In this document: piece after piece, positions 29,883-53,165 of the stretch
How the letters are laid out: every line of letters begins with the position of its first letter
Position numbering within the stretch: position 1 is the first letter of the stretch
NCBI RefSeq assembly: GCF_019649055.1
Contig: NW_026570303.1
Coordinates: 372,001-436,000, forward strand
From: Paramacrobiotus metropolitanus
Lineage: Eukaryota; Tardigrada; Eutardigrada; Parachela; Macrobiotidae
DNA length: 64,000 nucleotides
Direction of reading: 5' to 3'
The notes under the pieces: generated by a model
The model's database searches: none
Seen by the model: the letters and a program-made list of their open reading frames with translations, nothing else
What the model was told of the DNA's origin: nothing
Translations under genes and position numbers: made by a program

Positions 29883-30231
29883 TCTAATGCTAGATCCAGA
29901 ATGGATCCAGGGACAGAGACTCAAACGGGATGAATCCTGTGGAGTGAGCAATACGATCTGGATTGCGAACTATGCGAAATCACAAAACGCCGCACCGTAA
30001 ATTGCTGACTTTTTAATATTGAAAAGTCTGGAGAACAGAAAATCAATAATGATCGGCGCAGCTCGATCGTAAAGCGTGGAGCCCGTTCAACAGTGTGCAA
30101 CACTGTGCAGCACGTGCTATGCCGCGCCCACTAACAAAACACAAGCCAATCAGAGGCGAGACACAACACAGACACGTAATCCAGTGGCGAGTAGCGTTGC
30201 GGACGTGAACGCTAGTGAACCCCCGCTCACA
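29883..30231 (-). repeat. 3' LTR of the giant element
   Basis: Begins TGTGAGCGGGGG in element sense and ends GCATTAGA; 349 bp, same as 54038-54386. The terminal TG is present but the 3' end is not the common CA. The stretch just upstream in element sense ends CCCCCCAGAGGCA, a weak polypurine tract. Confidence 0.95.
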
Positions 30232-31660
30232 TGCCTCTGGGGGGATGCCGAGCTCCTGTGAGGCCCAACACTCTCCCGAATCGACGAAAACGACGGTCGC
30301 CAGTGTCTGTGCGTGCTCAAAACATCAAATTCTCTTAATCCATTTTATCACATCAATTCCATAAAGGCACAATTTCATTTAATACGATGTGAATAAAGGG
30401 ATCCAATTATAAAAATACTATCATAAAACAGATCAACAGTTAAACAGATCAACAAAAGTATTAATCAAATGTAGACTAGGATCCTCCATTTCTGACTCGT
30501 AAAGGTCACAGGTCCTGTCCACCGTTTTCCGCACTTTGGCCCATTCCGCTCTGTTGAGCAATCCTGCGCATCCATAATGCGACTTCATCACAATCCGCTT
30601 GAGAATCAGGTGCGTATCAAGTACGACTTAGGAATACTGCTTCGTCTTTGGAATAAGGTGCGTATCAACTGTACGACTTCAAATGAGATCCAAAAGGTCA
30701 TGGAGGGACGTCATGTAGACAAGCGTAGTTCGCTTCCTCCCTGGTAAAGGTCATCCTTTGTTGAGATGATCCGTTGAGATGTGTGACTCATTTTGGGTTA
30801 ATGGTCCCAAAGGTCATGCGACTTGAATTCCATTACGGTGACTCTGTTGGGCAATTGGTGATCCCAAAGGTCATCCGACTTTTCTTCAAACTTCCATTAA
30901 AGGTCATGGAGGAACTTAGCCAATTATCTGCGGCTTTCAAGCACTTCTTCGCTTGCCTCCCTGGTAAAACTTGCAGTTTGACCTTTCCGTCGCACATCCA
31001 ACTTCAGTATGCCTCGAGCGGCCAGAGTGCCGGCGAGTTTACCGTAGCATCTCTGATGGGGCCGGCTAATTACCGCATTGAGTTTACCCCATGAAATTTC
31101 CACCTTAAATCTTTTACTCTTGTTCGCCGCTTGTGGCTTACGTTATTACGAGAAATCCGGCTTGGTTACCGTAGTTTTTTCTCGTTTTAATTTTAACACT
31201 GAATCGCTTAAAGAGAGTGCCGGCATAGTTTACCGTAACAACTCTAATGAGGCCGGCTGATTGCCGCATTAAGTTAACCTCATCAATATTCCACCTGTTG
31301 TCTTTCTCTTTTTCGCCGCTTGTGGCTCCGTTTCGTATTCAAGAGATCCGGCTTGATTACCGTCGTTTCTCTTGTCAATTTATAACATTGAATCGCTTAA
31401 GAAGGAGAGCCGGCTAACTGCCGTAACTACTCCCTTGGGGCCGGCTTTGTAGACCGAATCAATTTCAACCCCAATAGTATTCCACATGATTTCTTTAGGC
31501 AATTCTGTGCTATAAATGCTGCAAACAACAAATACACAAATACAATTAATGTTAACATGTCACATATCACGCCCTTTATACAACACCGTTTTTTATTTTT
31601 GTGACGTACCGACAAAATGCCGTAGACGTCCTTTCAATAGTGTGATCCTAACGATCAACA
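30232..31660 (-). other. 3' noncoding region of the giant element
   Basis: No protein is called here. Six AAGGTCAT/C words in plus orientation at about 30503-30905, opposite to the usual orientation in the coding part, are followed by the hairpin array at 31023-31474. This region would be the 3' UTR of the genomic RNA. Confidence 0.7.
31023..31474 (-). other. Array of eight covarying RNA hairpins
   Basis: Eight copies of one fold in element sense: an outer stem, a 5'-side bulge of 5-12 nt, an inner CGG-loop-CCG stem (loop 7-9 nt, GCCGG on its 3' side), then the outer stem closes. Outer arms (plus coordinates) are 31023-31027/31051-31055 (CAGAG/CTCTG), 31056-31061/31087-31092 (ATGGGG/CCCCAT), 31148-31155/31178-31185 (ACGAGAAA/TTTCTCGT), 31214-31218/31241-31245 (AGAGT/ACTCT), 31247-31252/31278-31283 (ATGAGG/CCTCAT), 31340-31346/31368-31374 (CAAGAGA/TCTCTTG), 31404-31407/31430-31433 (GGAG/CTCC) and 31435-31440/31469-31474 (TTGGGG/CCCCAA). 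They sit in a roughly 190-bp tandem repeat of three hairpins per unit. Outer-stem changes between units are matched on the other side, the signature of selected RNA structure. Confidence 0.8.
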
Positions 31661-32782
31661 CTATTCCATTTCATTTGAATCGCCCTCGCCATCTCTTGGC
31701 GGGCGCTTCTTAGCACTTTCGGGTTGATTACGATCAGATGTCCGGTCAATTGGTTCCGTTGAATCAACTTCCATGACCTTTGCCGGGTCAACTTCGCGCT
31801 GGCCACGACCTTTACCTTGGCGACTTCGCTTAACCGCCTCAAGTCGATGGCGTGCGTCATTTTCTTTGAGTCGCAGTTTTCGGTTATCAGGGTCTTCCGC
31901 CAATCGACGCTGCACGTCGGCGAGATTATCCCGCAGCTGTTGGTTTCGTATGCCGCGTCGTCCCATCTGGTTGGGAGCGCGTTCCGGACGTCGGTCGCTC
32001 TTCTTCACTAGGAATTCATCGATGTACGTTTCAACTCCGTCCACTGGTTCGACGTAGTCACTTCCCAGGGAATCTTTGATCTTGTTGACCCTTTCTTCGA
32101 CTTGGGAGGCATGGCGCTGTATCAAGTTGCCCTTTTCCATTCGTGTCTTACACTTTTTCAGCGCCTTTCGAGCTGTGTGCGCTATGCTGATATGTTCCAT
32201 TGGTTGTCCCAATTTAGCGACATGAGCTCGGAAGAACGGTGGGATGTCATCTCTCATGGTATTGGATACCAACTGGTTCTGTGTCTTATAATGTGCCAGT
32301 CTCGCAGCGAAGACCTTTTGCCCCATTCTTTTTGCGGCATAATCTGTGGGATCCACTTGAAGTCCTACTGATGCTCTGGCTGCGAGCAACTTGAAGGCTG
32401 GATTCACATGTCGTAAAACAAACTGGGCCACGTATTCTTGTCGTTCGGGATAGTCTCTGTAATAGAACTGTGTCATCCCGATTGGGTCAGTTGTATCCAG
32501 CGGTACATCCAATAAACTCAAATCCACCAAACTGTGTAGCCCATTCCGTCGAATAGGGAGATAACAGTCCCGTACCGAATCGCGGTGGATGAATAACCGA
32601 CGAAAAATTCCTTGTTCCACACCCTGTTTAATCTCTCTCGCATATCCGGAGTCAAGTAAGATTTGGCGTAGCTGGTTCAGCATCGTACCAATCTTGTTAG
32701 CTTCGGCTGAGTCCAACTCTATTCCGAAGTACCGACAAATTTCAACCGTTTGCTCGTCAATATCATTCATATTATTTTCCAT
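31661..32782 (-). CDS. Giant element, last extra frame (373 aa), unknown
   Basis: No family recognised. The N-terminal two thirds are mixed alpha-helical-looking sequence (Phe/Leu/Arg rich, including FIHRDSVRDCYLPIRRNG and QEYVAQFVLRHVNPAF). The C-terminal third is highly charged and basic (RRGIRNQQLRDNLADVQRRL, then KRSRQGKGRGQRE), suggesting nucleic-acid binding. No signal peptide or membrane segment, so not an envelope. It is the frame closest to the 3' noncoding region. AAGGTCA words are sparse here compared with the rest of the element. Confidence 0.55.
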   Translation of the reverse strand: MENNMNDIDEQTVEICRYFGIELDSAEANKIGTMLNQLRQILLDSGYAREIKQGVEQGIFRRLFIHRDSVRDCYLPIRRNGLHSLVDLSLLDVPLDTTDPIGMTQFYYRDYPERQEYVAQFVLRHVNPAFKLLAARASVGLQVDPTDYAAKRMGQKVFAARLAHYKTQNQLVSNTMRDDIPPFFRAHVAKLGQPMEHISIAHTARKALKKCKTRMEKGNLIQRHASQVEERVNKIKDSLGSDYVEPVDGVETYIDEFLVKKSDRRPERAPNQMGRRGIRNQQLRDNLADVQRRLAEDPDNRKLRLKENDARHRLEAVKRSRQGKGRGQREVDPAKVMEVDSTEPIDRTSDRNQPESAKKRPPRDGEGDSNEME

Positions 32783-32868
32783 ATCGATGGTATCCGGCTG
32801 TCGATTATCGAATCTGGAATTCTGTCGCTGATCAGCCTGGCGACGATTATTCGGTTCATGTTGACCTT

Positions 32869-33915
32869 CTAGTTCACGTCTCTCTCCTGACTCAGGCTGC
32901 GACGGTTCATTACTCGCCTGTGTAGCCGGTTGAAAAAGTCACTATCCAGAATTACGTTCCGTCGATGAGTTACATTCTCTTGAGAGGCGGTTTCCATAAC
33001 TGAACTAGTTCCTTCCATCGCATCGTCTTCTTGTACGACGCTCACAATTGGATCCACGACGTGAACCATCGACTCCACCCGCTGGTAGTTTGGGGGTGTA
33101 TCTTCCCGTTCGGCGCTTGATGACCTTTTGCTTGCGCCCGAGTCAAAGGTCGCATAAAATGCGGCTCTCTGTTGCCATTTCTTATCACGTGGGTCGGGTG
33201 TTCGATCCCGCGTGCGCTCACGTCTTTTGTCCCATGACCTTTCAGGTGTTGACATTCTAACATTGCGGTTCCGGAATGCAACTCCCATCGGCACCTGATG
33301 CCCTTGCTTTTCAGGTTCTGTACGGAATGTCTCCGCACGCCGTTTTTCTTCACGTTCTCTCGTCGCCGCCAAAATCTTTGCCGTATCGATTTTCCTTTGA
33401 ATACTCATTTCTGTAACTTCGTCTCCATGGCGCACCCATCCTCTTCCGCCACGGTAATCTCGGTCACGAGAGCGTTCGCGTGACCTTTCACTGTGGTAGT
33501 CACGTGTCCTTTCACGAGAGTGTTCACGTGACCTTTCGCTCCGTCTTTCAGAAATCCGTTCATGTTCACGTGAATGGCCGCGTGACCTTTCTCTATGCGG
33601 AGGCGACCGTGGTCGTATGAAGCCTTCGTCCCGTTTAAAACTTCTGAGTGCTTGCAGCACATCGCTTTCGGTTCGGCGAGATTTACGTAGTTCATCCATA
33701 CGTCTTTCGACTTCCTTCTTTATGTATGGTGCCGGCGCGAACCCGTCTTGCAGTCGTTTCTTCTCCCGCAACAGCATTTTGAATAACTCGTCTGGCATAG
33801 CAGCTGGATCTTTCGTTAGCGTTTCGATTTGTATGATGAGGGACTGACGTGTCAGCTGCACTTCTTCTTCGTTTAGGCTGGCTGTGGGTCCGGTTGAACT
33901 CGACGTACTGGGCAA
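32869..33915 (-). CDS. Giant element, RS-rich extra frame (348 aa)
   Basis: Residues about 100-160 are an Arg/Ser/Glu-rich stretch with repeated ERSR, SREH and SRER, similar in composition to RS domains of splicing factors. The DNA behind it is largely repeats of GAAAGGTCACG and close variants, so the peptide repeat and the nucleotide repeat are the same thing seen twice. The flanks are charged and apparently disordered. Its start overlaps the end of the neighbouring frame (33873-34400). A role in splicing or packaging of the element's RNA is only a guess. Confidence 0.55.
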   Translation of the reverse strand: MPSTSSSTGPTASLNEEEVQLTRQSLIIQIETLTKDPAAMPDELFKMLLREKKRLQDGFAPAPYIKKEVERRMDELRKSRRTESDVLQALRSFKRDEGFIRPRSPPHRERSRGHSREHERISERRSERSREHSRERTRDYHSERSRERSRDRDYRGGRGWVRHGDEVTEMSIQRKIDTAKILAATREREEKRRAETFRTEPEKQGHQVPMGVAFRNRNVRMSTPERSWDKRRERTRDRTPDPRDKKWQQRAAFYATFDSGASKRSSSAEREDTPPNYQRVESMVHVVDPIVSVVQEDDAMEGTSSVMETASQENVTHRRNVILDSDFFNRLHRRVMNRRSLSQERDVN

Positions 33916-34400
33916 CCCTCTCGTGCAGCCTGTTCACTTGCTCTCTTATTTTCCGCATTAATCTTCGCGCGGATTTCGTCTTCCATCTGCTGAGCTCGCA
34001 TCTTCGCTTGGTCTTCTTCGAACTTCTTCCGATATGCGTCTGTTTGTGGACATTTCAACGGCTCCAAGGTGTCATCCCAACCAGGTTCATTGTTCCGGAT
34101 CGCTTCTCGATAACGATCTTCGAATAGCATCCGCTCTTCTACTGGGATGCTGTCGTAATTTCTTGCGTTTATGAGATTTCGAAAAACGTCCAAGTTCCCA
34201 CGTTTGGCTTCCATGATCCCAACAAGCGTGACGGCATGTGGGTCTTCCAGCTTGTGAATACAAGTGTAGCAAGGGAATTTCTTATCGACCTTTTTGTTGT
34301 TCCGTAAGCAGTCCGGACACTTTGGATTATAGCCCGTAAACTGATCGATGTCTGCCGCCATTCCCGAACGTTTAGGAGTGGCTTGACGTTTTTGTGCCAT
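33873..34400 (-). CDS. Giant element, small zinc-finger-like frame (175 aa)
   Basis: Residues about 27-47 contain two CxxC pairs, CPDC and CYTC, spaced by about 12 residues: a possible four-cysteine zinc site. The rest is a charged, probably helical region ending in a long Lys/Glu/Gln/Ala stretch. No family recognised. It lies 338 bp downstream of the 813-residue frame, and that spacer also carries three GTGACCTTT words. Confidence 0.5.
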   Translation of the reverse strand: MAQKRQATPKRSGMAADIDQFTGYNPKCPDCLRNNKKVDKKFPCYTCIHKLEDPHAVTLVGIMEAKRGNLDVFRNLINARNYDSIPVEERMLFEDRYREAIRNNEPGWDDTLEPLKCPQTDAYRKKFEEDQAKMRAQQMEDEIRAKINAENKRASEQAAREGCPVRRVQPDPQPA

Positions 34401-34738
34401 CTTTCTTCTTCAATCTGCAATTATAAAACAATCCGTCATAGTAATCTTTTCCACGTCAATCTTTTCCATTCCTATCCATGTCAAGGCTTTTCTATCATTT
34501 TTACGCCTATTCCGTTACTGAGCTGAGACTTTCCTAGCTCCTGCTGCCTTTTGTATCACTGTAACGTGGTGACCTTTCTCACGTTATCAGCACTCTCTGA
34601 CTACTGTGACCTTTTCTATTAGTCCTAGTACTGTTCAAGTGACCTTTCGTCATACTTTTCTCTTTCGTTTTGAACTATTTTATGCTTTTTCTGTAATATG
34701 CAGGGTTGATTACTCGCTGCATATTACACTCGTCCCGT

Positions 34739-37180
34739 TTACTCGGATTCCTTCGCCGGTGGTTTGTACGGCTTAAAGTCGATTCGACCATCTGGTTTAA
34801 TATGAAGCACTTCGTCTGCGATCAAGGCTTCGACGGCGTTCTTAATCCACTCTTTATCACTTTCAATATTCAAATCTCCCAATTCGTAATTGACGGCCAT
34901 GAAGTTCGAAAGGTCATTCCAGGACGCTCCATTGGTACCGCCAATGGCGTCCAAAGCCACGTCTGTGATGGCTATCTTCCAGGCCTCCAGTTCCATTTTC
35001 AGTCTGGGCGTTCGTTCCTGACCCTGTTTCGGAAGGTAGTAGACGACTTTGTTGTCCTTGTTGTATTTACATCCCAACTTTCCTTCCTTATATGCTCGTT
35101 TCAGGGCTCGTTCAGTCATGTTAAGTGACGACCTTCCGTTCGTATTTATTGCCACTTGTCTTTTCAGGTCTGTACCAAGCATTTCTTTTTCCCGAATAAA
35201 CTGGAGCGCAGCCTGGACTTCGTTCCATGTACGATTATTCACGTCCAATGCCGGCCCTAACGTGTAATCTGTAGCCTCCTTTGCCGGTATGCCGCTACTT
35301 TTCTGGGAGGATGCCGAGTTCGTTGGGTCGGCTGTCGCTGTTTCGTCGATCCTCAGCTTTGCCAATGATCCTGATGATGACCCCGCTGATTTTGGTTCGG
35401 CTGTCTTCTGCTCCTCTTGTGGCAAAGTCTCTTGACCTTTTGAATCGCCGACCGACTTCGATCGTTCCTTCTCAAAGACGTCCTTTAATGGTATGAACAG
35501 TGATTTGTGAAACACCTGGCGCGCCGAATCCGCTTCAGCTTCTGCCGCTGCCTTATCCATCGGGAGCATGACCTTTTCTTTCTCCCGTTTGTCTGAAGTC
35601 TCATGACCTTTCGGTTGAACTTCTGCGGTAGTTCCAGATGTCTTCTGACCTTTCGACTGTTCATCTTTTTCTGTCGCAGGTCCAGAAGGAGCCGTTATTG
35701 TAGTATCGTCATCACTTCCCGATTCCGAGTCCATTGGTCCTTTTTTCCTCGACACTTTCGGGGCTTGTGATTTCAACCTCGCCGCATCTTCTTCGGCCGT
35801 TTTCTGTGCAATCTGATCCAATATCGGAGTTGACGGGTCTCCGCTCAATGGAACTGTGACCTTTTCCGTATCCTGACTGTCAGACATATGACAGTGGATC
35901 TGTCTTTCCGGTGGTATCAAACCAACTCTCGTGTATCGGATTGGATGTCCTTTATTTGCGTTTGTTGTAGCAAGGACATTCTGTTTAATCAGTCTCGGCA
36001 GTACACGCTCGGTTGCCGTATCGATTTCTTTTATCATTCCATTTCCATCGTTCCAAACTGCGTTAATATATTGGCTAATCCGATGACTCGTTGACCCTAA
36101 CGGGCTTGTCATTCCTGCGATTGCCCTTTCTACCCGCATTGGGACCGCTTCATTCGGAGTTGTCAGCGCTTTATCCGAACTGGTTGGTCTGAACAACTTG
36201 GCCTCATACGAAAAACTCGGGTGCTTCTGTATGAGTTTTCCTGCGTTCCGCGCGAATTCCAATACGACGTCGAACTTTTGTTTAGTGAAGCTACGATGTT
36301 GTTTCTTCAAATATGTCTTCAGGCCTGCTTTGAATTTGGATGTCACCGATGCTGTTCTTATTCGTGTGAAATTCTTCTCAGCTCCGTTGTACGCGTTGAT
36401 TATTTCATCAAATATGTTCAAATTATCATCGTCTGGACCATCAAATTCTTCATCCGAGGTGAAGTCCAGTTCGCTCTCTCCATCTGGTTCAGTATAATTA
36501 ACCAGTGTCAATGCATCGATTTTCGTAACTGTCTTGCCCTTTCCTTTGGTTCTAACGGGTTCGCTCTTTGCTTTTTTCCCTTTATCCAAAGCCTCCGCTA
36601 GACTTCTTGGTTCAGTAGTCCTTGATCGCGTCGTTTTCGAATCCGCATGTGACCTTGCACTAACCGTCGAAGTGCTTGGAAGGCTCACTTCCGATGCCTC
36701 CGATTCACGCGACGTCTTCCGTTTCGCTTTTTCGCGAATCTGTTTGTCCTTGCGCTCTTTTGGCGTGGATGCGGAAATGACAATGGGGACAACTTGTTTC
36801 ACCGCTATGACCTTTCCTTTGGGTTTTAACGGTTCTGACGTAGCCGAATTGATAACTTTCTTTGAAGTCGTAGGTGTCGATGACCTTTCTTCAACTTCGC
36901 CAACTGACTCGTCCAATATCTCAACATCATGAGACGCTGGTTCATCTCTTTTCTTTGATCCTTCCCTTTTCTTCTTCCCGGTGCTTGTGCTATCGCTTTC
37001 GTCACCGCTCTTTTTCTTCTTATCTTCTTCCTCCTGTCGTTTCTTCTTATCTTCTTCCTCCTCGTCTGAGTCCTTCTTCCTTTCCTTCATGGCTGAGCTC
37101 TGGTTCATCGTCACCAGGTGGATTACAATGGGCACAGTTTGGTTCATCACACTGAAGGTGCTCATGACTTCCTTGGGCAA
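34739..37180 (-). CDS. Giant element, long extra frame (813 aa)
   Basis: The N-terminal 230 residues are very acidic and lysine-rich low-complexity sequence (EEEEDKKKRQEEEDKKKK). From about residue 240 a more ordered region appears (LNIFDEIINAYNGAEKNF, LKKQHRSFTKQKFDVVLEFA). The middle is again disordered with many KGQ/KGH tags, and the final 130 residues look folded (NVNNRTWNEVQAALQFIREK, KYNKDNKVVYYLPKQG). No recognised domain. It overlaps the short frame 37047-37451 by about 130 bp in another frame. No membrane segment. Confidence 0.5.
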   Translation of the reverse strand: MPKEVMSTFSVMNQTVPIVIHLVTMNQSSAMKERKKDSDEEEEDKKKRQEEEDKKKKSGDESDSTSTGKKKREGSKKRDEPASHDVEILDESVGEVEERSSTPTTSKKVINSATSEPLKPKGKVIAVKQVVPIVISASTPKERKDKQIREKAKRKTSRESEASEVSLPSTSTVSARSHADSKTTRSRTTEPRSLAEALDKGKKAKSEPVRTKGKGKTVTKIDALTLVNYTEPDGESELDFTSDEEFDGPDDDNLNIFDEIINAYNGAEKNFTRIRTASVTSKFKAGLKTYLKKQHRSFTKQKFDVVLEFARNAGKLIQKHPSFSYEAKLFRPTSSDKALTTPNEAVPMRVERAIAGMTSPLGSTSHRISQYINAVWNDGNGMIKEIDTATERVLPRLIKQNVLATTNANKGHPIRYTRVGLIPPERQIHCHMSDSQDTEKVTVPLSGDPSTPILDQIAQKTAEEDAARLKSQAPKVSRKKGPMDSESGSDDDTTITAPSGPATEKDEQSKGQKTSGTTAEVQPKGHETSDKREKEKVMLPMDKAAAEAEADSARQVFHKSLFIPLKDVFEKERSKSVGDSKGQETLPQEEQKTAEPKSAGSSSGSLAKLRIDETATADPTNSASSQKSSGIPAKEATDYTLGPALDVNNRTWNEVQAALQFIREKEMLGTDLKRQVAINTNGRSSLNMTERALKRAYKEGKLGCKYNKDNKVVYYLPKQGQERTPRLKMELEAWKIAITDVALDAIGGTNGASWNDLSNFMAVNYELGDLNIESDKEWIKNAVEALIADEVLHIKPDGRIDFKPYKPPAKESE

Positions 37181-37451
37181 TCTCGAAAACTCTTTGTAGC
37201 GAACGTCTGGCCCCTCCTGTTTCAGTTACATTTGCCGACGTGCCCTGCGCCTCTTCCGTCTCTCCGGCTCCGCCTTCTTGTGCCGGGGGATGAATTTCCA
37301 AATGCGCTGTCTCTTTCGGCTGTCCCTGTGAGGCGACCTCCCACAAAGGGTTCTTCTTAGCGTCGTAAAAGACCGTTTTGTACGATCCATCTTCCATTCG
37401 TCTTGTGAGTCGGAAATGTGCTCCATCGATCTCCGCTCGATGCCGCATCAT
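37047..37451 (-). CDS. Giant element, short frame (134 aa) with Cys cluster
   Basis: Starts MMRHRAEIDGAHFRLTRR. Ends in an acidic then basic tail with a Cys cluster, CDEPNCAHC, followed by NPPGDDEP, which might bind a metal. It overlaps the following 813-residue frame. No family recognised. Confidence 0.4.
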   Translation of the reverse strand: MMRHRAEIDGAHFRLTRRMEDGSYKTVFYDAKKNPLWEVASQGQPKETAHLEIHPPAQEGGAGETEEAQGTSANVTETGGARRSLQRVFEIAQGSHEHLQCDEPNCAHCNPPGDDEPELSHEGKEEGLRRGGRR

Positions 37452-37456
37452 GCTGA

Positions 37457-39610
37457 TCAGTATATCGCTTGAACCACGGCATCTGTTCGGTCACTTTCAG
37501 GTATCAGATCCCATAACTGCTCAATGGCTGCCTGATTCGCATTTCGGGCGCTCTCTTCTGATACATCCCATGGGGCATATGGGATCGGGTCTCCTGTTAT
37601 TGGGTCGACTATCACTGCAGTTATGGTTTCCACAGCTTCTCCATTACCAGCGAAAAGTCTGAGGGTGACCTTTCTACTTGTCGCCTCTGTATATCTCAGG
37701 ACCGACTCATAATCATCTGACGATCGTTTCTTCGGATCTGGATCCGCCGTCGGTTTTGAGCGAGTTCTCTCTTTGGTCAACAATTTGCCGTCCGTTGTGT
37801 ATGTATATGCCAAGTGGTCATCATTTGTGCCCACTTTGATACGGATCCATGCATCTTCTTCGGTCGCAACTTTAGATACCACGTGCTTCATCATCTGAAT
37901 GATAACTCTTGGGTTATGACGTTCTTCTGGGGGAATAAACTGTAGCGCCTCGTTAACTACCGTTTTTGACTCTTCCCCAATGGCATCCTTAACTGACCTA
38001 TCCGCGAGGGGATTATACGAGTTGATCTCTTTGTTCGTTTTCTTATCGACTATTCGTGCCGTAACCTTTCGTTCCTTATGGTCTTCCCCAGTGTACTTGG
38101 CCGTGAAACTTCTACACTTCGGGAATCGAATCTGACCTTCTGTTCCAGCCGGTGTGGGTGGCGCACTCTTTCTACCCACTAGGACTGGGCCTTGTGGCTT
38201 TGCCGGCTCAGCTGGTGTTGCTTTATCTGACGTGGCCTTCTTCGTTTGCTGCCCTTTCTTGTCAGTTTCTTTTGGGCTTATCGTTGGTGACCTTGCTCTT
38301 TTTCCACTCTTTGTGGCTCCGCTAGATGGTTCTGTAACCGAACTAGTACGTCCACGTACTGATCCTGCGGTCGAGCTGGCCCGTGACCTTTCTGCTCGTT
38401 CATTTAATTCTGCATCAATCTTCTTCTTTGTTGCCAAAAGGTCCTCATCCGTCATTTCATCGACCGGGGCGTCTTTTTCAGCTATGAGCTTGGATGGTCC
38501 CGCGACTCTGGTAGTCGGTATCTGTCTTGTTTCCGGGAACACTTTGAGATACCTAAGGATCTTTTCGACAGTCTCCGGCCACCTTCTACCTTTTATCGTC
38601 GGATGATATTGCCACATCGATGCAACTTGTATTGCGTATTCCTTGCGCTTTGCTTCAACCTGTTTCGTTTTATCTTTCATGGCAATGTGGCACGGTTTGA
38701 TAACAGCTTCCAGACTGATTAACTTCCCATACCATGCGTGTTCATCTTCAACTCGCATGTGGATTCTGTAAAGGTCACGGCATTTCCGATTGAAGTCACG
38801 AATGGCTTCTAAGTCGGTTTCCGTCAGCTTTTCCTTTTTATCCACGATTAAATTCAGGTTTGGGTCATCGTCCCTCAAGTCCAAAGGGGGCTTCGGTGCG
38901 TATTCGTGTAATGAGGGTTCGCCTGGGGGCGTAAGGCGTAAGCCATCTGGTCCAGTCTGCTCCAAGTTGGGACCCAGTGACGGTAGAATGCCTCTCGGTC
39001 GCCTTCCTCCTCTGTGTGGCGAATTACGATGAGGGCGCTGCGCTCCAAGTTGCTGCGGTGTTCTCATGCGAGGCGTTCCTATGTCCGACAATGACAAGCC
39101 TCCCGTCTCCGGAAAAGGCGGTAGTATCGGAGATGACCTTTGTGACTGTACCGGAGTCGCTAGCATTCCGCTGAATCCTCCTTGTCCCGTAAATCGATTC
39201 GGTGGAGTCTGTTGTGGTGGCGGCATCAGCATTCTTGCCGGTCCCATTATCACCTGCGATGATCCCGGTGGGGTGTACGATCCCGGATACGGTTGATAGG
39301 GGGCGCCCATCGCTTGTCCCGAATACTGGGTTCCGGCAGGTGAGCCGTGGTGCACCCAGTTTACCGTGTCCTGATAATTCGTCTGCTGTCCTGGATCGTG
39401 GTATACGTAATACCCCTGTCCGCCGTAGTAACTTCCTTGAACTGTTCCGGGTTCATTCTGAGCCGTTCCCGCTGACGACGTCGATCCCTCACCGTATGAG
39501 GTGTCGTAACCGTATTCACCTTCCATTCTTTTAGGTGTCGATGCTTTTAATGGGTTTCCAATACTTCCCGAATCAGAATTATCCGAGTTTTGCCGTTCCA
39601 ATCTTTCCAT
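37457..39610 (-). CDS. Giant element, prion-like extra frame (717 aa)
   Basis: The first 150 residues are Tyr/Gly/Gln/Pro/Ser-rich, with YGGQGYYVYHD-type repeats, of the low-complexity kind found in phase-separating RNA-binding proteins. Residues about 250-370 are ordered and basic (TDLEAIRDFNRKCRDLYRIH, KYLKVFPETRQ-type helices). A disordered Ser/Thr/Lys-rich linker follows, then an ordered C-terminal 230 residues containing two similar modules (RSFTAKYTGEDHKERKVTARIVD and RKVTLRLFAGNGEAVETITA..IVDPITGDPI). The two modules suggest an internal domain duplication. Function unknown; position is directly after pol. Confidence 0.5.
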   Translation of the reverse strand: MERLERQNSDNSDSGSIGNPLKASTPKRMEGEYGYDTSYGEGSTSSAGTAQNEPGTVQGSYYGGQGYYVYHDPGQQTNYQDTVNWVHHGSPAGTQYSGQAMGAPYQPYPGSYTPPGSSQVIMGPARMLMPPPQQTPPNRFTGQGGFSGMLATPVQSQRSSPILPPFPETGGLSLSDIGTPRMRTPQQLGAQRPHRNSPHRGGRRPRGILPSLGPNLEQTGPDGLRLTPPGEPSLHEYAPKPPLDLRDDDPNLNLIVDKKEKLTETDLEAIRDFNRKCRDLYRIHMRVEDEHAWYGKLISLEAVIKPCHIAMKDKTKQVEAKRKEYAIQVASMWQYHPTIKGRRWPETVEKILRYLKVFPETRQIPTTRVAGPSKLIAEKDAPVDEMTDEDLLATKKKIDAELNERAERSRASSTAGSVRGRTSSVTEPSSGATKSGKRARSPTISPKETDKKGQQTKKATSDKATPAEPAKPQGPVLVGRKSAPPTPAGTEGQIRFPKCRSFTAKYTGEDHKERKVTARIVDKKTNKEINSYNPLADRSVKDAIGEESKTVVNEALQFIPPEERHNPRVIIQMMKHVVSKVATEEDAWIRIKVGTNDDHLAYTYTTDGKLLTKERTRSKPTADPDPKKRSSDDYESVLRYTEATSRKVTLRLFAGNGEAVETITAVIVDPITGDPIPYAPWDVSEESARNANQAAIEQLWDLIPESDRTDAVVQAIY

Positions 39611-39739
39611 TAACTGTGCTTACCTTCTATAAATATGAAACAATAAAGGTTAACTTTTTGCACAGTGGTGACCCTTTTTTTTTTTTTTCCTTCCCAACTC
39701 CTATTTTTAATCTAGTGTGACCCCTTATTTATGTCTATG

Positions 39740-44500: not shown

Positions 44501-45404
44501 CACCGTTATCGAGTGACCTTTCCCCGTTTTTTGCCTCAGTTACTGGGTTTTGCTGTTCATTCGATATCCTTTCGATTTCCTCTTTGAACTTCTTCCACAT
44601 TTCTCCTCTATCCGTTAGCATCTGTGCGATGTCAAAAGCCGACTTTGAACTTTCTTCCGTTTCGTTCGATCCGCCTTCAACTATCTCAACTGGTTCCTCA
44701 TTCTCTGTTTCTTTTGCTGTCCCCTTATCGACTTCATCCTGTTGAACTGTTTCGTAACCTTCAGGTCGTTTAGGACCAACAAAGATGCAGTTTGCCATCA
44801 GTTCTTCGGTGACCCATTCATCATTTGGGATCGTTTCATACATGCACCATGTATCGCCACCTCGTTCTGGGTAGTCCACTCCGTCTGGGTCTGGTGCAAA
44901 GGTCACCTTTTTCTTTTGCATCAAACCCGGTAACCTTCTTTTCCGAGTTACCTGTAGTTCTCGCATTTCTTTTACGTCAAATTTGGGGATTTCTTCTTCG
45001 AATTTCTTCCAGTATTTCTCGAATGCTTTTTCGTTTCCCTCTTTTAACGCGTTGTAGTACACTTCAAGTGATTCGTAGACAGGTGTGCCAAGTCCTGCCG
45101 GGAAAATAATCGTCCTCCCTTCACCTTTGTACATGTGGTTTACGCGAAAGTCCCAGAAAAGGTCAACTCTCGCTTCTTCCCACATCTCTCCTTCCTCGTT
45201 CATCTCTTCTATCTCTCTTTCAAATCTCCTTCCTGTTGCTACCGGATCAAGGGGATCCTGGATTCCTTTCTCGACACGTTGTAACCAATGGTTTAGCCAT
45301 CTTCCTCTCCCGATAATGAAGCTCTTCACGCATGACAACCAAGTCCGGTATCTGTTACAGTGATACCGTTCAATGTGTGGCTTCCACATTTCATTTGTCC
45401 GCAT
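41500..45404 (-). CDS. Giant element pol: reverse transcriptase and RNase H part
   Basis: RT blocks in order: WSFPVVLAVKKNGDG, RFCVNYIMLNKLT, YYGKMDLQSGFWQIPMD, YRFKRMPFGVCNGPATFQ, the catalytic GYIDDVIFAG (Y-x-D-D) and GFLGHILSEDGI. RNase H follows with IECDASKEGIGAVLSQDG, ECLAVVFAVRKFKPY and VRTDHQALTNLL. About 500 residues of charged, low-complexity sequence precede the RT, much longer than in ordinary Ty3/Gypsy elements. The RNase H to integrase order confirms the Ty3/Gypsy assignment. Confidence 0.95.
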
Positions 45405-45549
45405 GATGCTTTTCGCTTCCTTTTGAACATGACCTTTAAGGTCTGCTAATGCAGCATTACATCTTGGCCATTCTGAAGGGTCATCTTGAGAGGCATTTTC
45501 ACAACATTCGGCACATTCCCATTGTGGTTGTATTCTGCACGGGTCCTCG

Positions 45550-48500
45550 AATTAGCCGTTGTGACAACTCCTGGCTCGTTCGTCTGAGGTTAGCGACCTT
45601 TGGCTCGCTTGCGGTCTAACCTCTTCCTGTGCTGTTGCGTCTTGTTTGCATTCGATTGGGGTCACGCTTTTGTCCTCAGAGGATATTTCGATGACCTCTG
45701 GTTCTTTTTGTGTTCGGTAACCTTTCAGCTGTTCGAGCGCCTTGTTACGAATTTCACTTGTAAACATCTGTTCCTCTTCGGCTATTCGTTTTAATACTCG
45801 TAACCTTTCGCTCTTTTTATCCTTCCACACTTTAGCCGTTTTTATTCCCAGTGCCTCTGGTACTGGGATAGGCTTTGCCCACTCCATGTCTGGCACAAGC
45901 GATTGTTTCGCTGCAACTGCCGCTTCTTTCTGTGTGGCAATTATCTCTTCAAGCGTTGGTGACCTTTCGGTAGCAGGTCGTGGTTCGAAAAGGTTCGAAG
46001 TACGTTCTGGTTCCAAGTTCTCAGTCGCTGGTGACCTTTCGTCTTCCTTTCCTAGTGCCTCTGGTACTGGGATAACTTTTCGACATTTCCATTTTCTGTG
46101 GCTCCTTGTTCACAGTCATCTGCGATCATACTTCTCCCGTCCGGGAGAAATATGATCGCCTCATCCGTGTCTGGCGCGAGCGGTTCCTTTTTCCTTTCGT
46201 TGACTTTTTTGACATTTACGCTTTCGCTTTTCTTCTCCGGTGCCTCTGGTACCGGGATTATCCGTTGGCTAATCTCGTTCTGCTGCACTCTCGTCATTCC
46301 CGGTGCCTCTGGTACTGGGATGACCTTTTCTCTTCCCTTTTGTGTCGGCATTGTCCGGTTTAACGTGTTTTCGATCTCCTGCTGAATCATTTGCAACTGC
46401 TCAAATGGTGACAATTCTTTTCGCGTCATCTTTTTCTTTTCGTTTCCCGGTGCCTCTGGTACTGGGATTAGCGTTTTATTAGCAGTTTGAACATTTTCCT
46501 GTTTTACAAGTTCGGTGACCTTTCCGACTTGAACTTTGGCGACTGGTTTGGGGTCATCTTCTTTTTCTTCTTCCCCTTCGTTATCCATCAGTACGAACTT
46601 CTTCTCTAAGAAGTCGAATCCCAATAACACCTGTACGTCGTCGCACTTCGGTCGGACGTAGAATGAATGTTCGCTAGTCTTTTTTCTTAAGGTCACTGGT
46701 GCTACACAGTAATGCGTCACCAAGAATCCTGACGTCCCGCTAATTCCATTTATTTTCACCAATCTGTCTGGTGGTAATGGGAGCATGTGAAGTCCATTCT
46801 TCTCACAAAACGGTTTGCTGATCAACGACGTCTCAGCGCCGGTGTCCAACATTGCGTTGACCTTTATGTCTCCCACTTTCACTTCGTGTGTGTATGCTTC
46901 AATTCTCTTGGGCAGTTTTCCATTTTGAATCTTCAAAGTGTGAATCTTACATTTCACAGGAATGAGCGATACTGGTCCCGGATCCATATCGGGAAGCACT
47001 TGCCCTTTAGCTGGAGTGCTGTGACCTTTCAGTATCTCGCTCAACTTGTCGATCCTGTGTGGCACGTCGGTTCGAACATCGTAATATTTTCGCGGCTTTT
47101 CTTTACTTATTTGCTTCTCTGTAGTCATTTTACCACTGGTGACCTTTTCAGCATTCTGCACTTGCTCATTTGCTTTTGTGCCAGCTGTGTGACCTTTTGT
47201 CGCTTCATTTATCGTTTGATGGATCAGTTCCTCTTTGCGATTTTCATTCCGTTTATCCCTCAACTTCTCAATGACTTCACTTGTTATTTGGTCCGCTCGC
47301 TTCAATTCGTCTTCTTCACTGTCTTTCATCTCGTCTGATGACCTTTCGTATGTAACCATGTTGTATCCTTTTTCGGTCATCCATTGCATCACTTTTGCAG
47401 ATACTTCATTGTTTGTTTTCGTCGGGTCGATTTGTGAAGACATTCCGTCTGTTCGGGTTGATGACTTGTCATTGGCATTCTTTTGCAGTGCTTCCGATAA
47501 GTCCCGTGACCTTTCAACTGCGCAACTCTGTTGCGTTTGCGCCATCTCATTTGACTGTCCTTTTTGTTCTTTTTGCGCTAAGTCCTGTGACCTTTCGTTG
47601 CGCTTCATGACAAATCCGCCGTTTGTCAGCTTTTGTATGGGGACTTTTTCTCCATAATTCAGCGGTTTGTCCTGTGGCGGGGCATTACGTGAATCATTCC
47701 AGTCAGCGCATGTCTTCTTATATTCCTCTGCGTTGAATGCTGGGACTGGGTTCGGTGACCCTTGGGTTGGTTTCCCGGTAACCAACTCTTCTACTCGCTT
47801 TCTTTCACATTGCTTTCGCAACTGTTGCGTGTCCCAGTAATCCTCCTGTGACATTCCCGCTTTCTGCTTCGCTTTTGGAGTTACGGGTATCCACATATTG
47901 TGATTGCCATTCGGTCTGTAGGCCACTTTTTGCCACTTCTCCTTCTGTTGTAGTGTTACTGCGTCCACCAGTGAGTCGTCGGAGTTCTGTGCCATTTCAT
48001 CATTCTTTTGCTGCGCTGTTCGCAGTGTCAAGTCTGTTTCTTGACCTTTTAACACGACGCTGTCGCCGTGACCTTTCGCATTCGCACTCGCTCCTTGACC
48101 TTTAACTTGGACTTTTCCAACAGAAGGTAACCTTTCATCTTTACTACTAACGGTGATATTCTGCTTAATCCATTCTTGCCTTGCCAGCTTCTCTTCTTCG
48201 TCTTCTGAACAATTCCAAAACTTTGGCTTTGGCTCCCCGTAACAATCGCAACTTGGCTCAATCGCCTTATCGTTTTCTGCTAAAAATTTTCGGAATTTCG
48301 CATGCTGCTCGTTTTCTTCTTGCGCAGTATCGTTCTGCGGTTTCTTCTGATTCAGCAGCGCCTGTTTAATCTTTGCGTTCCGTTGTGCGCGTCGTTGCGC
48401 TAGCACTTCTTCGCTGCAGTACGGTGACCTTTCGTTTTGCTGCACTTTTTGCAGTGTCGCGCTACCGTCACGACAATTTCCACTCGCAGTACCATCCTGC

Positions 48501-49140
48501 GGTGACCTTTGGTCCCGTTGCGCGCTTCCACTCGCAGTACCATTCTGCGGTGACCTTTTACTTTGTAACGGTATCCCTATAACCGTTCCATTTCCTTTTT
48601 GTGATGACGGCATCCATATAGCCGTTTCTCTTTGCTGTGGCGGCATCCATCTAGCCGTTTCTTGTGGTTGCGGCATCCATATAGCCGGTCCACTTTGCTT
48701 TTTCGTTGACGGCATCCATATAGCCGTCGCAGTGGTCACATTCACTGCAGTACCATTCTGCAGTGGTGACCTTTCCCTTTTATCCGGTGGTTTAGGGTCG
48801 GGTCGATCAGTAGGCTCACCGGTGCCTACTGATCTTGCCCGTTTTCCTGAACCGGCGCCCCGCCTTGTTGCGCGCCCTGCACATTCCCTTGCGCTTGCTC
48901 GTTCACCGGGCCACCTCCGTTTTGCTGGCCACCACCCTGTTGGTAGTTTCCTTGGCCGCCTCCATTGTTCTGGCCTCCTCTGAAATTTCCGCGGCCATAG
49001 CCTCTGTTCCTTCCTCTGAAGCCGCCGCGGCCGAAGCCACCACGGCCGTAGCCGCCATTCTGGCCACCGCCATTTCCATTTCCGTAGTTCCCGTTTCCAT
49101 TCCCTTGTTGGTTTTGGAAGTTTGCTTTGTGCTGATACCA
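45550..49140 (-). CDS. Giant element pol: protease part and repeat-rich linkers
   Basis: Contains the aspartic protease: VNAMLDTGAETSLIS with the catalytic D-T-G, and VLLGFDFL as the later hydrophobic-Gly motif. Upstream is a roughly 700-residue low-complexity region with several IWMP tags (48600-48725) and many KGQ/KGH runs from the AAAGGTCA words. Downstream of the protease the peptide IPVPEAPG or a close variant (IPVPEALG) recurs five times (about 45855, 46055, 46235, 46300 and 46450). The repeats may be flexible spacers or binding tags; no function is known to me. Confidence 0.85.
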
Positions 49141-52100
49141 TTGGGTGATGAGGTCATATCCGTTTGCGACCGCTGGGCGCCAGCCACCTATAGCTCGGAG
49201 GCGTTGCCACTCGTTAAAGGCAAACAGATTCGGGTTCTGTTCTGGTGGTGTATTGGCGAACTTGCACCCCTGTGTCTGATGGTTGCCGTTCATACAGTAC
49301 TGGCACATCTGTACGTTGTTCGCCACCCATCCATCAATCATCTGGAACTTGAATTCGGTTCGTGACCCTTGATTTTGCTGTTGATTCTCTCTGAAGTTTC
49401 CTTGACCTTGACCTCGTCCCTGATTCTGGAAGTTCCCCTGACCTCCGTTCCAGTTTGCATTTCCATATCCGTATCCATTTCCACCAAAATTTCCGTTCCC
49501 TGCTCCTTGTTGTGGTATTCCAACGTTCATTGGGGCCACGTTCTGTGGAGCTGGTGGAGCCACATTCTGAGGTGTCGGTTTCACTTGAGCCGCCGCCTGT
49601 ATTGCAGCTACCATGGCGTACGTGAGTGGCTGTCCCGTCTGGCTGTCGATAAAGGTCACTTCTTTGGTGACCTCTTGCGCCGGGGCCTCCCTGCGGTATT
49701 CAACCGGCTGCTGGACTGGTGCAGCTGCCATCCTCTGTTGTGGTACGTTTTCGACTTGACCTTGGCGGATGGTCACGTATTCCTGATTACGTTGACCTTT
49801 AGGCGCTTTATATTTATCTTCTCCCGCTGACCAGTGACGGAAGAAATCTTTGATTTCGGTTGGAGTCCTGCACTGTTGCGTGCGCAGGGCTTTATAAAGG
49901 TCACCATCCACTCTACATCCTTCGATCAGGAAACCGACTGCCTGCTTTTCAGTTATAATCCGTTTCGCTTTGTATTTCATGATCGCTTGATAAAACTGAT
50001 CAAGAGATTCTTTTCCAAGGTCAAATTTTCTTGCCATGGCTTCTCGTAATCCAAGGACTTCTTCATCACGATCTCCATATTCATCTTTGAATTTGGCCAG
50101 CCATTCCGTAATTGTATATTCTGTTTCCTTCTGGAGTGCGATCTCTCTCTCTCCTTCGAACCAGGTTTTCGCTGGTCCTTTCACCGCGCTGGCTATTTCA
50201 ATTAAGATCTGGTCGTCGGTGAGGTGATACGTTCGTTGGGTATCTCTAACCAGTTGTGTCCAACCGTTCACTGCGTCACGACTTCCGTCGAAGGTCACCA
50301 ATGTCGTTTTCCGTGCCATCGAATTGAGTGCATTTACCAATTTCTGTGTCGGATCTTGATCTTCTGCTGCACTAGAATCACTGTCTTCTTCTTCCCGGTT
50401 TTGCTTCGCCTTTGCGTAGCGGGACTTCCTCGGGCGTTCTTGACGGCTCGGTGGTCTATCCCGCTGTCCTTTTTTGATGAAGACATAAGTTTCGATATGC
50501 TGGGGAAACTGAGAAGGGTCACCTCGATTCGTAAGCGAATAACTTTCCGATGGTGGCTCTTTGTCATCTTTGGCCTTTTCCCCGTCCTTTTCGTTTTTGA
50601 CACTTCCTCTGCCGGTACCAGTTCGTAGCGGCATGTCGAAGTGGAAGCTTCTGCCCGTGCCCGTTTCATGCGCCTTGCTGTAACTGGGCGGCGGTGATTC
50701 CACTGTTGCTGTTCTACCGCCGTATTGCAGAAGCTGCTCGTCTTTGTGCTTGTTTGACGTCTGAAGGGCTTTGTTTTCATCTTCCAGTCGTTTAGTTCGC
50801 AGCTGAAGTTCCTCTCTTTCCCTCTTCAAGTCGGAATTTTCCAAGTTGACCTTTCGTAAATGCTCATGCAGTTTGAAAGTCTCCCGCTGCGTGACCTTTT
50901 CATTGTCCTCTTCCATCTTCTTAATGTGTCTGGCCAGCTCAGTCGTTTCATTTTCGAGTTGCTGATACTGTCCCGCGGCTGATCTCAACTGATCCTTGAT
51001 CACGATCAACTCGTCATCCTTTGCTAATGCTGTGGTGGTCATCTCGACGAGGTCAGTGTTCAGCTTTGCAGTTTCCTGACTCTTTTGAGCGACCTGTTGT
51101 TGCCACTCTTTGTCCTTTAGCTCCAATATTGTAATCATTGTGTCCAGTCGCCGTGCTTCCTTCTGCCATTTGAGTCCTTCCTTAGTGACCTTTTCAATGT
51201 CTTCCTTGACCTTTTCGTTCTCCTGGTTGACCTTTGTGATTTCTTCTTTCATGCGTTCTCCTTCAGTAGCTGTAATGTCTTTTGCCTCTCGCATCGCCTT
51301 GATTGCCTCATTGCGCGACTTTTCAGCTTCGTCAGCCCGTTCCTGATGACCTTTCGACTCCTTCTGTAGGGTACCGATAGCTTTGTCTCGTAGCTCAAGG
51401 TCGTTCCTGAGCTTAAATGTTTCGGCTGCTAATGTTGTCAGTCGCTTCGTGACCTCTGCGAAGTTGGTAGCATATTCATCTCGTTTAGATTCTGCTTCAG
51501 TGACCTTTTGTTTCAGGGAGTCGCATTCGTCCTTCAATTTTGCCAAGTGCCGTGACCTTTCCGCTGTTTCCTCGGACATACTCTCGTTAAGGTCACTGAC
51601 TGCAAGATGACCTTCCATTTCTCTGTCATCTACCATTTTCAGGTACTCCTCAGCGAGTTCTTTTTGGCGCTCGTATTTGATCTTCCATTCGTCCGCCGTG
51701 TTCTCCAAATAAGCCTGTTGTTGCTCCAATTCATAAATACGAGCATTGAGGGATCCCATCTGGTTTTGGTATTCCTGTCTCTTTTTCATCACCTGACCTT
51801 CCTTCACTTCGAGTTCTTCTTCCAATTCCTTTACACGTCTTTTCAGGGTTGACGTTGGACTGTTCGGTGATGGCGGTCGTACATTGATGACCTTTCCAGT
51901 TTGTGTCCGTTCAATGAGGTGCTCTGGTATGTCCTTGAATCGTGTCATACCTTCAGCGCGGTCAGCTTCCCTCATCGCAGTTTGAAAGGACATATTCATC
52001 GTCGCTTCGTCATCCGTGAAGTATGATTCGTTTGACTCATCTGAGACCATTGGAGTTGCCCAAAGGTCATCGCCTGCGGTTTTATCGTTCAGTGAAAGGT

Positions 52101-52287
52101 CGTCCAATCCCAGTTCAGCCAGTTCCTCTTCGGTGACCTTTGTGTTTCTCTCCTCCACTTGAGTCAGGTTCACATTTTTATCCTGCTCATTCGTTCCGCT
52201 AATGGTAACATCCAGCTGTGATGCTCCAATTGGGTCCGCTCCTCTTTCTGTGGCTTTTTCCTCCCCAGTGACCTTTGTCTGGTTCAT
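48826..52287 (-). CDS. Giant element gag (1153 aa) with long coiled coil
   Basis: Order: an acidic N-terminus; a continuous heptad-rich coiled coil at about residues 140-540; a PPPSY sequence (PPxY late-domain type) near 550; a basic linker; a capsid-like Ty3/Gypsy gag domain at about 690-870 (TFDGSRDAVNGWTQLVRD ... GPAKTWFEGER ... FKDEYGDRDEEVLGLREA); a CCHC zinc knuckle (CQYCMNGNHQTQGC, CX2CX4HX4C); and a Gly/Arg/Asn-rich RGG-type tail. It packages the RNA. A 400-residue coiled coil in front of the capsid domain is unusual for the family and more than doubles its normal length. Confidence 0.9.
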   Translation of the reverse strand: MNQTKVTGEEKATERGADPIGASQLDVTISGTNEQDKNVNLTQVEERNTKVTEEELAELGLDDLSLNDKTAGDDLWATPMVSDESNESYFTDDEATMNMSFQTAMREADRAEGMTRFKDIPEHLIERTQTGKVINVRPPSPNSPTSTLKRRVKELEEELEVKEGQVMKKRQEYQNQMGSLNARIYELEQQQAYLENTADEWKIKYERQKELAEEYLKMVDDREMEGHLAVSDLNESMSEETAERSRHLAKLKDECDSLKQKVTEAESKRDEYATNFAEVTKRLTTLAAETFKLRNDLELRDKAIGTLQKESKGHQERADEAEKSRNEAIKAMREAKDITATEGERMKEEITKVNQENEKVKEDIEKVTKEGLKWQKEARRLDTMITILELKDKEWQQQVAQKSQETAKLNTDLVEMTTTALAKDDELIVIKDQLRSAAGQYQQLENETTELARHIKKMEEDNEKVTQRETFKLHEHLRKVNLENSDLKREREELQLRTKRLEDENKALQTSNKHKDEQLLQYGGRTATVESPPPSYSKAHETGTGRSFHFDMPLRTGTGRGSVKNEKDGEKAKDDKEPPSESYSLTNRGDPSQFPQHIETYVFIKKGQRDRPPSRQERPRKSRYAKAKQNREEEDSDSSAAEDQDPTQKLVNALNSMARKTTLVTFDGSRDAVNGWTQLVRDTQRTYHLTDDQILIEIASAVKGPAKTWFEGEREIALQKETEYTITEWLAKFKDEYGDRDEEVLGLREAMARKFDLGKESLDQFYQAIMKYKAKRIITEKQAVGFLIEGCRVDGDLYKALRTQQCRTPTEIKDFFRHWSAGEDKYKAPKGQRNQEYVTIRQGQVENVPQQRMAAAPVQQPVEYRREAPAQEVTKEVTFIDSQTGQPLTYAMVAAIQAAAQVKPTPQNVAPPAPQNVAPMNVGIPQQGAGNGNFGGNGYGYGNANWNGGQGNFQNQGRGQGQGNFRENQQQNQGSRTEFKFQMIDGWVANNVQMCQYCMNGNHQTQGCKFANTPPEQNPNLFAFNEWQRLRAIGGWRPAVANGYDLITQWYQHKANFQNQQGNGNGNYGNGNGGGQNGGYGRGGFGRGGFRGRNRGYGRGNFRGGQNNGGGQGNYQQGGGQQNGGGPVNEQAQGNVQGAQQGGAPVQENGQDQ

Positions 52288-52639
52288 CGGTTCACTTCCC
52301 GCCGTAGACGCGGGAGTGTGCTTCTGGTCGTCGCTGGAACTTTCCTGATTGGCGACCGCCTCGAGCGCCTTCTGATAAGTGCTATCAGACCCTCGTGAAT
52401 CCTTCTTCTCGAATGCCTTGGGCGCTCGAGTGTTCCGCTCATGTCCAACTGGACGTGAGTACGGGTACGGATTCTTTTTGTACGGGTTTGGTGCGCTTTG
52501 CTGTGAGCTGCGGGAGCTTTTGCTTCACTGACTGCTGTTGGATGTCGGTTCCTCTTGGTCTTTGTCCATGTTGATCGGATAACTTGGACGCTCCTGCCAA
52601 TTGTTCTCACACACACGTTATTGTATGGTTTATTCAATT

Positions 52640-53165
52640 TTCCTAAAGGTCACTCTGTACCTCCGAAATTTTTCTAAGTCCTTATTAAAGGTCACTCTTC
52701 GACTGAAAAGTTTCGACTAAGTCCCGTGTAAAGGTCACTTTTTCGATAAAAAGTTCGAGAGATTTGCCCTAAAAGGTCACTTTCGGACAAAACTTCAAAA
52801 CAGCTTTTACAGTTCGAAGCACGTTAGCGAATGAAATCCTACAGCTACTGATATCGCTGTACCACTATTCAGTTCAATTTCAGTTCGATAAAGGTCACCG
52901 TTCGTCAGTTTCAGATCATAAAGGTCACTTAAATAGGTCAATTTGGTCAATTCCAACTTTTCAGTAAAGGTCACTTTTCAAAGTCAACGGTCACGTTCTG
53001 ATCTCAAAGGTCACTTTCCGACTCGATTCAACTCAAAAGGTTACTTTCCAACTCAATTTCTGTTAAAAGGTCACTTTCCCGTTCAATTTCAAGTTAAAGG
53101 TCACTTTTAAGCTCAATTCGATCAAAGGTCACTTTTCCTTTGTCTCCACTCAAAAGGTCACTTTT
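52640..53165 (+). repeat. Cluster of twelve AAAGGTCAC words in the 5' leader
   Basis: AAAGGTCAC recurs every 25-60 bp (near 52645, 52688, 52731, 52771, 52890, 52919, 52964, 53005, 53067, 53096, 53123 and 53154), with decayed relatives between (ACGGTCAC, AAAGGTTAC). Spacers are mostly T/C/A-rich and not conserved, so this is not a simple tandem repeat. In element sense the word is GTGACCTTT, opposite to the prevailing orientation in gag and pol. Confidence 0.9.

Follow-up and report, generated by a model that had tools for sequence, protein, structure and literature searches.

AAGGTCA words throughout the genes of a giant Ty3/Gypsy retroelement in Paramacrobiotus metropolitanus: a possible self-tag of the element family

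Why should a seven-base word be written about a hundred times into one mobile element, mostly inside its genes? The question is raised by a 64,000-nucleotide stretch of the genome of the tardigrade Paramacrobiotus metropolitanus (contig NW_026570303.1, positions 372,001 to 436,000; hereafter the window, in whose coordinates all positions are given). The window carries a Ty3/Gypsy long terminal repeat (LTR) retroelement of 24,504 bp on the minus strand (29883-54386), recognized from its LTR match and flanks and from its protein domains. A reading of the letters by eye (the original prediction) had put about 105 copies of AAGGTCA, mostly within one 8-mer, in this element, with about 3 expected by chance and only a handful in the remaining 39.5 kb, and had ascribed them to selection at the level of nucleotides, not of the peptide. 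Here we ask whether the word is under selection, at which level, and what might read it.

Enrichment and placement of the word

The element contains 109 copies of AAGGTCA/TGACCTT (34 on the plus strand and 75 on the minus strand), all between 30500 and 53165, and 92 of them are the full 8-mer AAAGGTCA. Dinucleotide-preserving shuffles of the element (n = 300) gave a mean of 3.6 and a maximum of 10. The observation made by eye is confirmed. The whole window holds 121 copies, 12 of them in the other 39,496 bp, which corresponds to 4.45 words per kb in the element versus 0.30 per kb in the rest of the window. Those 12 copies outside 29883-54386 are themselves more than the approximately 5 expected for a random 7-mer on both strands, a figure obtained without shuffling. 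The background considered throughout is a local one and not a whole-genome count: it comprises the 39.5 kb outside the element, loci of two sister families, B and C, and some 12 kb flanking element copies, with 4 words.

The excess was also found when the encoded proteins were held constant. Codon-preserving shuffles of ten open reading frames (ORFs) gave a summed mean of about 10.5 words where 83 were observed; a similar count under such shuffling, which the original prediction had named as fatal to it, did not come out. Sixty permutations of the letters of the word showed no excess in the same ORFs (188 observed versus 175 expected). The enrichment z score was 52 for the family of this element (family A), 26 for the word of family C and 11.7 for that of family B, and window flanks reached 7.4 at most.

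The word has sharp borders. The base before it (position -1) is A in 92 copies out of 109 and C in 7, G is rare directly 3' of the word (4/109), one-letter variants of AAAGGTCA occur in 0 to 7 copies each, and the sequence context outside the 8-mer is almost information-free. Coding sequence holds 84 of the 109 words. They were predicted in all reading frames, in spacers and in the leader; this stood for the three sense frames and for both kinds of noncoding sequence, but antisense words use only the two frames that escape a stop. Words were also found in the 3' region. The predicted saturation of the element likewise applies to 30500-53165 and not to its ends: the LTRs and the 872 bp adjoining the 5' LTR (29883-30231 and 53166-54386) contain no word, and neither does ORF A3. 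Word density peaks in the leader, at 13.7 per kb. Words of the leader and 3' arrays all run in one direction (18/18), a lone word at 30979 runs opposite to the 3' array, and 68 of the 84 coding words run opposite to the arrays; noncoding words as a whole number 18 in one direction and 7 in the other. No helical or nucleosomal periodicity of the words was detected at nine periods tried.

We then considered the places in the family A ORFs where the protein would permit the 8-mer. AAAGGTCA occupies 56 of 74 such places in sense orientation (76%, with about 5 expected by chance from codon usage) and 11 of 15 in antisense orientation (73%, chance 0.2-0.4). Since protein composition alone would supply only about 19 and 4 permitted places, many words arrived together with amino-acid changes, and both shares are inflated. 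The similar use of both orientations points to double-stranded DNA as what is read. A peptide-repeat origin was rejected because every allowed frame contains words, in either orientation. Tandem repetition or insertion of the word was rejected as the main source of coding words because no common context extends past the word; a tandem-repeat origin does hold for part of the leader, which contains a 30-bp repeat.

Conservation and turnover in sister copies

The assembly (169.8 Mb in 533 contigs) was searched for further copies of the element. The family A Pol stretch matched 205 candidate places; among the 40 that were scored, 39 had at least 91% identity (the window included) and one had 84%. 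LTR pairs were 93.8-100% identical in the five copies inspected, and family A is large and young. Five copies fetched near whole from the 40 scored (C7, C84, C4, C57 and C35) formed the set for the conservation tests, to which loci L002-L008 did not belong; 109, 109, 92, 87 and 95 of the 109 words were alignable in them, respectively.

Word positions were conserved above their flanks in all five copies. At four-fold degenerate sites, conservation in words versus elsewhere was.957 versus.850 in C7,.925 versus.787 in C84,.949 versus.736 in C4,.921 versus.739 in C57 and.797 versus.621 in C35, which is a distant copy. In each of the five, a larger share of words was intact than in any of 2000 random samples of 109 7-mers. 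Loss of the motif at aligned positions with no sign of constraint, which would have spoken against the original prediction, was thus not what the copies displayed. Shuffles, frames and four-fold sites agree in supporting selection at the nucleotide level, as opposed to the peptide.

Conservation of individual sites was far from complete. Copies carry 83 to 115 words, the two lowest counts belonging to C57 (83), which is a deleted copy, and C35 (89), and each copy has 66 to 96 in-place words in common with the window. Summed over the five copies there are 186 site differences, 91 of them words found only in the window and 95 only in the copy, although one event may count several times in this sum. 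A single substitution separates word from non-word in 94 cases, 49 involve a gap and 43 need two to four substitutions. The number of words is roughly held while the sites turn over, largely via substitution.

Other words in sister families

Two sister families in the same genome, B and C, were read in part; their Pol proteins are 54% and 59% identical, respectively, to that of family A over the longest stretch. High density of AAGGTCA is specific to family A, and family C is not enriched for it: loci of B and C (4-8 kb each) contain 0 to 2 copies per locus, those of family C 0 to 1 apart from one (L032) with 5, against a shuffle mean of 1.1 and maximum of 5. Family C has a conserved word of its own, different from that of family A. 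AGGTCGG occurs 57 times in 21.4 kb (three pieces, two of which overlap by 65 bp) where 3.7 are expected, and in both orientations. Its counts lie above all 100 synonymous shuffles in six of six ORF stretches, and its third codon positions (19 positions) are conserved at.84-.95 versus.65-.66 in six other copies. It fills 10 of 38 permitted places in sense orientation (1.6 expected) and 28 of 55 in antisense (3.6 expected).

Family B has AGCCTC as a candidate word, with 44 copies versus 8.6 expected in 16.6 kb and 29 versus about 8 in five ORF stretches. Its third positions (ten) were 90-100% conserved versus 83-89%, and control words were partly equal to it.

A candidate reader of the word

Among the accessory products of the element, A4 drew our attention as a possible word-binding protein. 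Its relatives among the 12 proteins found all come from P. metropolitanus, and a protein search with the A4 relative of family C returned one match, from the same species. A4-related stretches were recognized in family C (E value 1e-8) and family B (1.5e-9) with 26-27% identity over the matched stretch, and these relatives have thus diverged more than Pol. In the window copy, 35753-35844 is a stretch of about 92 bp that is absent from 23 matching places, which align as two adjoining blocks; A4 thus has two subtypes. A deletion derivative that multiplies without A4 was looked for and rejected: of 168 candidate places 40 were scored, and among these no copy other than C57 itself had the C57 junction intact.

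The first Pfam match of A4 was Linker_histone (E 0.001; 19.7 bits, curated cut-off 22.4), and the family B member gave 17.1 bits with the same model, again below threshold. We distinguish a linker-histone-like domain at about residues 320-425 and two winged-helix-like segments at about 640-808, all by sub-threshold similarity. The Linker_histone match recurs for separate pieces of A4. A domain profile built from the three families matched 11 PDB chains, with a best E value of 0.035; nine of them were histone H1.0 or H5, which are closely related proteins. A sequence search of PDB with the whole of A4 gave PadR (E 0.076). One AlphaFold model of A4 contains the order of three helices and two strands (H-H-H-E-E) twice, at a mean predicted local distance difference test (pLDDT) of 45.9 and without a significant Foldseek match. 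Residues 640-722 gave a single weak Pfam match, in one of five members; in PDB their profile matched chains of the Arc repressor, among them pArc (E 8e-5), which we set aside as probably due to chance or composition. The C-terminal segment profile matched Ribonuclease J only (E 0.9), and three of five members matched Linker_histone in Pfam (best E 0.033). From these pieces of evidence taken together, individually non-significant, a winged helix of linker-histone type is likely in A4.

A second candidate reader may be ORF A3. Its cysteines follow the pattern CX2C-X12-CX2C, and family B contains a relative. Comparison of A3 and A1 with PDB gave nothing useful. In the Pfam scan of nine element ORFs (E 0.1; gag left out), no match was found to DUF1985 or DUF287, the domains of VANC, an anti-silencing protein of plant transposons considered below.

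What the words may be for

We infer, beyond the counts and their conservation, that a protein reads the word, that A4 is this protein and that the outcome is protection from silencing. The explanation that we favour, without being confident of it, is that the words form a self-tag along the integrated DNA which, read by an element-encoded protein, keeps the copy from being silenced. AAAGGTCA would be a cis-acting, family-specific mark of the retroelement. A sequence-specific protein, most probably A4, the element's own accessory product, would bind its double-stranded form, whichever way it faces, at roughly a hundred internal places, and binding would leave most of the 23 kb coated or marked. 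The integrated copy, or its complementary DNA, would in this way be kept out of the silencing chromatin of the host, as VANC does for VANDAL elements. A broader version, in which we place somewhat less trust, is that several giant Ty3/Gypsy lineages in one genome carry private words through their genes, even bending their own proteins to do so, and that in each lineage a fast-diverging protein of linker-histone type recognizes the word of that lineage and packages or shields its kin alone.

Several observations weigh against these proposals. The linker-histone likeness of A4 lies below all curated cut-offs, and a Pfam search with only the family A middle domain placed Perilipin_2 (E 0.014) and KORA (0.066) ahead of Linker_histone (0.08). 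Both AlphaFold models of A4 are of low confidence (pLDDT 39.9 and 45.9), and none of 228 Foldseek matches reached E<=0.001. Linker histones as a rule are not sequence-specific binders. The shared domain is 55% identical between B and C with A as the outlier, yet it is the words of A and C that share AGGTC, a poor fit to simple coevolution of reader and word. Family C uses the two orientations unequally, antisense about twice as much as sense. The word of family B, AGCCTC, is weak and no more than a candidate. Finally, the noncoding words of C35 barely exceed the rest of its noncoding sequence in conservation (.852 versus.825).

The strongest alternative is that a host nuclear receptor of the NR4A, ERR or FTZ-F1 type binds the words and is used by the element, along its whole length, as an enhancer, insulator or chromatin opener, with the sister families recruiting other host factors. 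We regard this as possible, though unlikely. The word matches the AAGGTCA-type receptor half-site, and AAAGGTCA is the NR4A element (NGFI-B response element, NBRE). The host genome gave 63 exon-level zf-C4 matches, and among seven readable zf-C4 domains (eight fetched) two are presumably ERR-like (L047 and L050) and one FTZ-F1-like (L045). For P. metropolitanus, 42 C4 zinc-finger proteins are reported (PMC12941274). The leader with its 12 sites also resembles the 5' untranslated region of gypsy in Drosophila, for which 12 Su(Hw) sites are described (PMC2374998). However, the LTRs and the stretch adjoining the 5' LTR are devoid of words, whereas nearly all genes are pervaded by them, and an enhancer needs no saturation of coding sequence. 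No NR4A-like domain was present among the seven read, which cover few of the 63 matches. At position -1, C is the base preferred by ERR and FTZ-F1, whereas the element has C there in only 7 copies and A in 92, and we know of no nuclear-receptor half-site AGGTCGG, the word of family C. The receptor sponge or hormone-responsive array suggested by the original prediction has consequently become the less supported of its proposals; its other suggestion, a word serving the element's own nucleoprotein, is the one we favour, with A4 as a putative reader.

It is improbable that the word acts in RNA, either read in the genomic RNA by the gag nucleocapsid or a host RNA-binding protein, or through pairing of UGACCUUU of the leader and 3' arrays with AAAGGUCA of the coding sequence. 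Such pairing would agree with the complementary directions of the arrays (apart from the word at 30979) and of most coding words, and the antisense preference of family C would suit a single-stranded target. Yet in the family A ORFs both orientations lie far above the synonymous expectation with similar shares, noncoding words run both ways, and family C likewise has more words than expected in each orientation. A functionless by-product of coding bias, repeat expansion or word-writing mutation is very hard to sustain and has already been largely refuted: the 30-bp repeat in the leader and the gaps in about a quarter of the site differences would suit it, but the codon-preserving and permuted-word controls, the conservation of words at four-fold sites, the near-empty context that distinguishes coding sites from repeat copies, the single substitutions behind about half of the differences and the different word of family C do not.

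The broader version, if true, would amount to a self/non-self chromatin code among co-resident retrotransposons. At 84 sites of the element the word stands in competition with the coding of protein, and a co-resident family uses another word. This makes direct testing of word-reader pairs and of their co-evolution possible, and codon-preserving word counts per element family would offer a way to find such systems from sequence alone. To our knowledge, word-level self-marking of transposable elements against host silencing has been demonstrated only for plant VANDALs; the present element is a candidate case from an animal and from a retrotransposon. A limited search of the literature on tardigrade transposons, giant LTR elements of nematodes, element-wide words, and linker histones with Gypsy elements found no description of such a system.

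Features of the element and its surroundings

The LTRs of the window copy are 100% identical over 349 bp, and a GCAG target-site duplication lies on both sides of the element (29879-29882 and 54387-54390). Next to the 5' LTR stands a primer-binding site, TGGTAGCAGAGC, which we take to be of the initiator-methionine transfer RNA type. Downstream of gag, Pfam domains follow in the order Asp_protease/RVP, RVT_1, RT_RNaseH, H2C2 and rve, the order of Ty3/Gypsy elements, as the LTRs, duplication and primer-binding site are those of an LTR retroelement. The gag ORF was assigned through its similarity to families B and C. About six accessory ORFs lie downstream of gag-protease-reverse transcriptase-RNase H-integrase (Table 1).

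Table 1. Positions of the retroelement and its parts in the window; words are copies of AAGGTCA in either orientation.
Feature	Position	Strand	Remarks
Whole Ty3/Gypsy LTR retroelement	29883..54386	-	24,504 bp; from LTR match, flanks and domains
5' LTR	54038..54386	-	349 bp; 0 words; identical to 3' LTR
Primer-binding site TGGTAGCAGAGC	54026..54037	-	adjoins 5' LTR
Leader array	52646..53160	+	12 words in a single orientation, part in 30-bp repeat
gag ORF	48826..52287	-	CCHC knuckle by eye; 22 words
Protease ORF	46052..49141	-	Pfam; 17 words
Reverse transcriptase / RNase H / integrase zinc-binding ORF	41331..45404	-	Pfam; 17 words
Integrase core ORF	40636..41394	-	Pfam; 3 words
Accessory ORF A7	39743..40639	-	3 words
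Accessory ORF A6	37457..39610	-	717 residues; 6 words
Accessory ORF A4, candidate word-binding protein	34739..37165	-	808 residues; 9 words
Accessory ORF A3	33873..34400	-	175 residues; CX2C-X12-CX2C by eye; relative in family B; 0 words
Accessory ORF A2	32869..33915	-	rich in R, S and E; 5 words
Accessory ORF A1	31661..32782	-	373 residues; 1 word
3' array	30502..30906	+	6 words, orientation as in leader
3' LTR	29883..30231	-	349 bp; 0 words

Two further repeats were observed inside the element. A 37-bp unit encoding IPVPEAP is present in five copies between protease and polymerase (45833-46468), and the family B protease (L034) has similar IPIPEA peptides, perhaps a processing or docking site. 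A coding stretch resembling FFEPRTATG recurs in ORF A7 and in a spacer ORF at 45552 (positions 39970, 40057 and 45968).

The left flank contains several ORFs sharing a seven-transmembrane-like sequence, which by eye resemble rhodopsin-like receptors (5700-28380), together with a GC-rich tandem repeat of 79/153 bp (16937-17294). Inverted arrays of one 110-bp unit, with 4.7 copies each and 97% matches, lie 2.4 kb apart at 22839-23358 and 25761-26281 and are possibly the ends of another mobile element. The right flank (56000-61660) carries transporter-like ORFs, by eye of the major-facilitator type.

Comparison with known systems

Plant Ogre elements are oversized Ty3/Gypsy LTR retroelements with ORFs beyond gag-pol, and the tardigrade element is like them in size and extra ORFs. 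We know of no word saturation in Ogre-like elements. DNA uptake sequences of Neisseria and Haemophilus are short words that mark self DNA, in genes and spacers and in both orientations. They are scattered in a similar manner, but belong to bacterial chromosomes and to transformation, involve no element and reach a lower density.

The gypsy Su(Hw) insulator resembles the leader in having 12 short sites in a Ty3/Gypsy element; those sites lie within 340 bp and are bound by a host zinc finger (PMC2374998), whereas here the word differs and 97 more copies of it stand beyond the leader.

The closest likeness is to VANC and VANDAL of Arabidopsis. The VANC motif is nine bases long, other motifs occur in a related family, and binding drops drastically when a single base of the motif is changed (PMC5735166). 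In both cases a short word is amassed at high density in one family while relatives have other words, which is clear here for family C and weak for family B. Both families encode a fast-diverging protein, for which binding was demonstrated in VANDAL and for which A4 is a candidate here. VANDAL is a DNA transposon whose words are noncoding and spread by tandem repeats (PMC5735166), whereas ours is an LTR retroelement of an animal in which tandem repetition is confined to the leader, most of the words are coding, and a single substitution accounts for about half of the sites at which copies differ.

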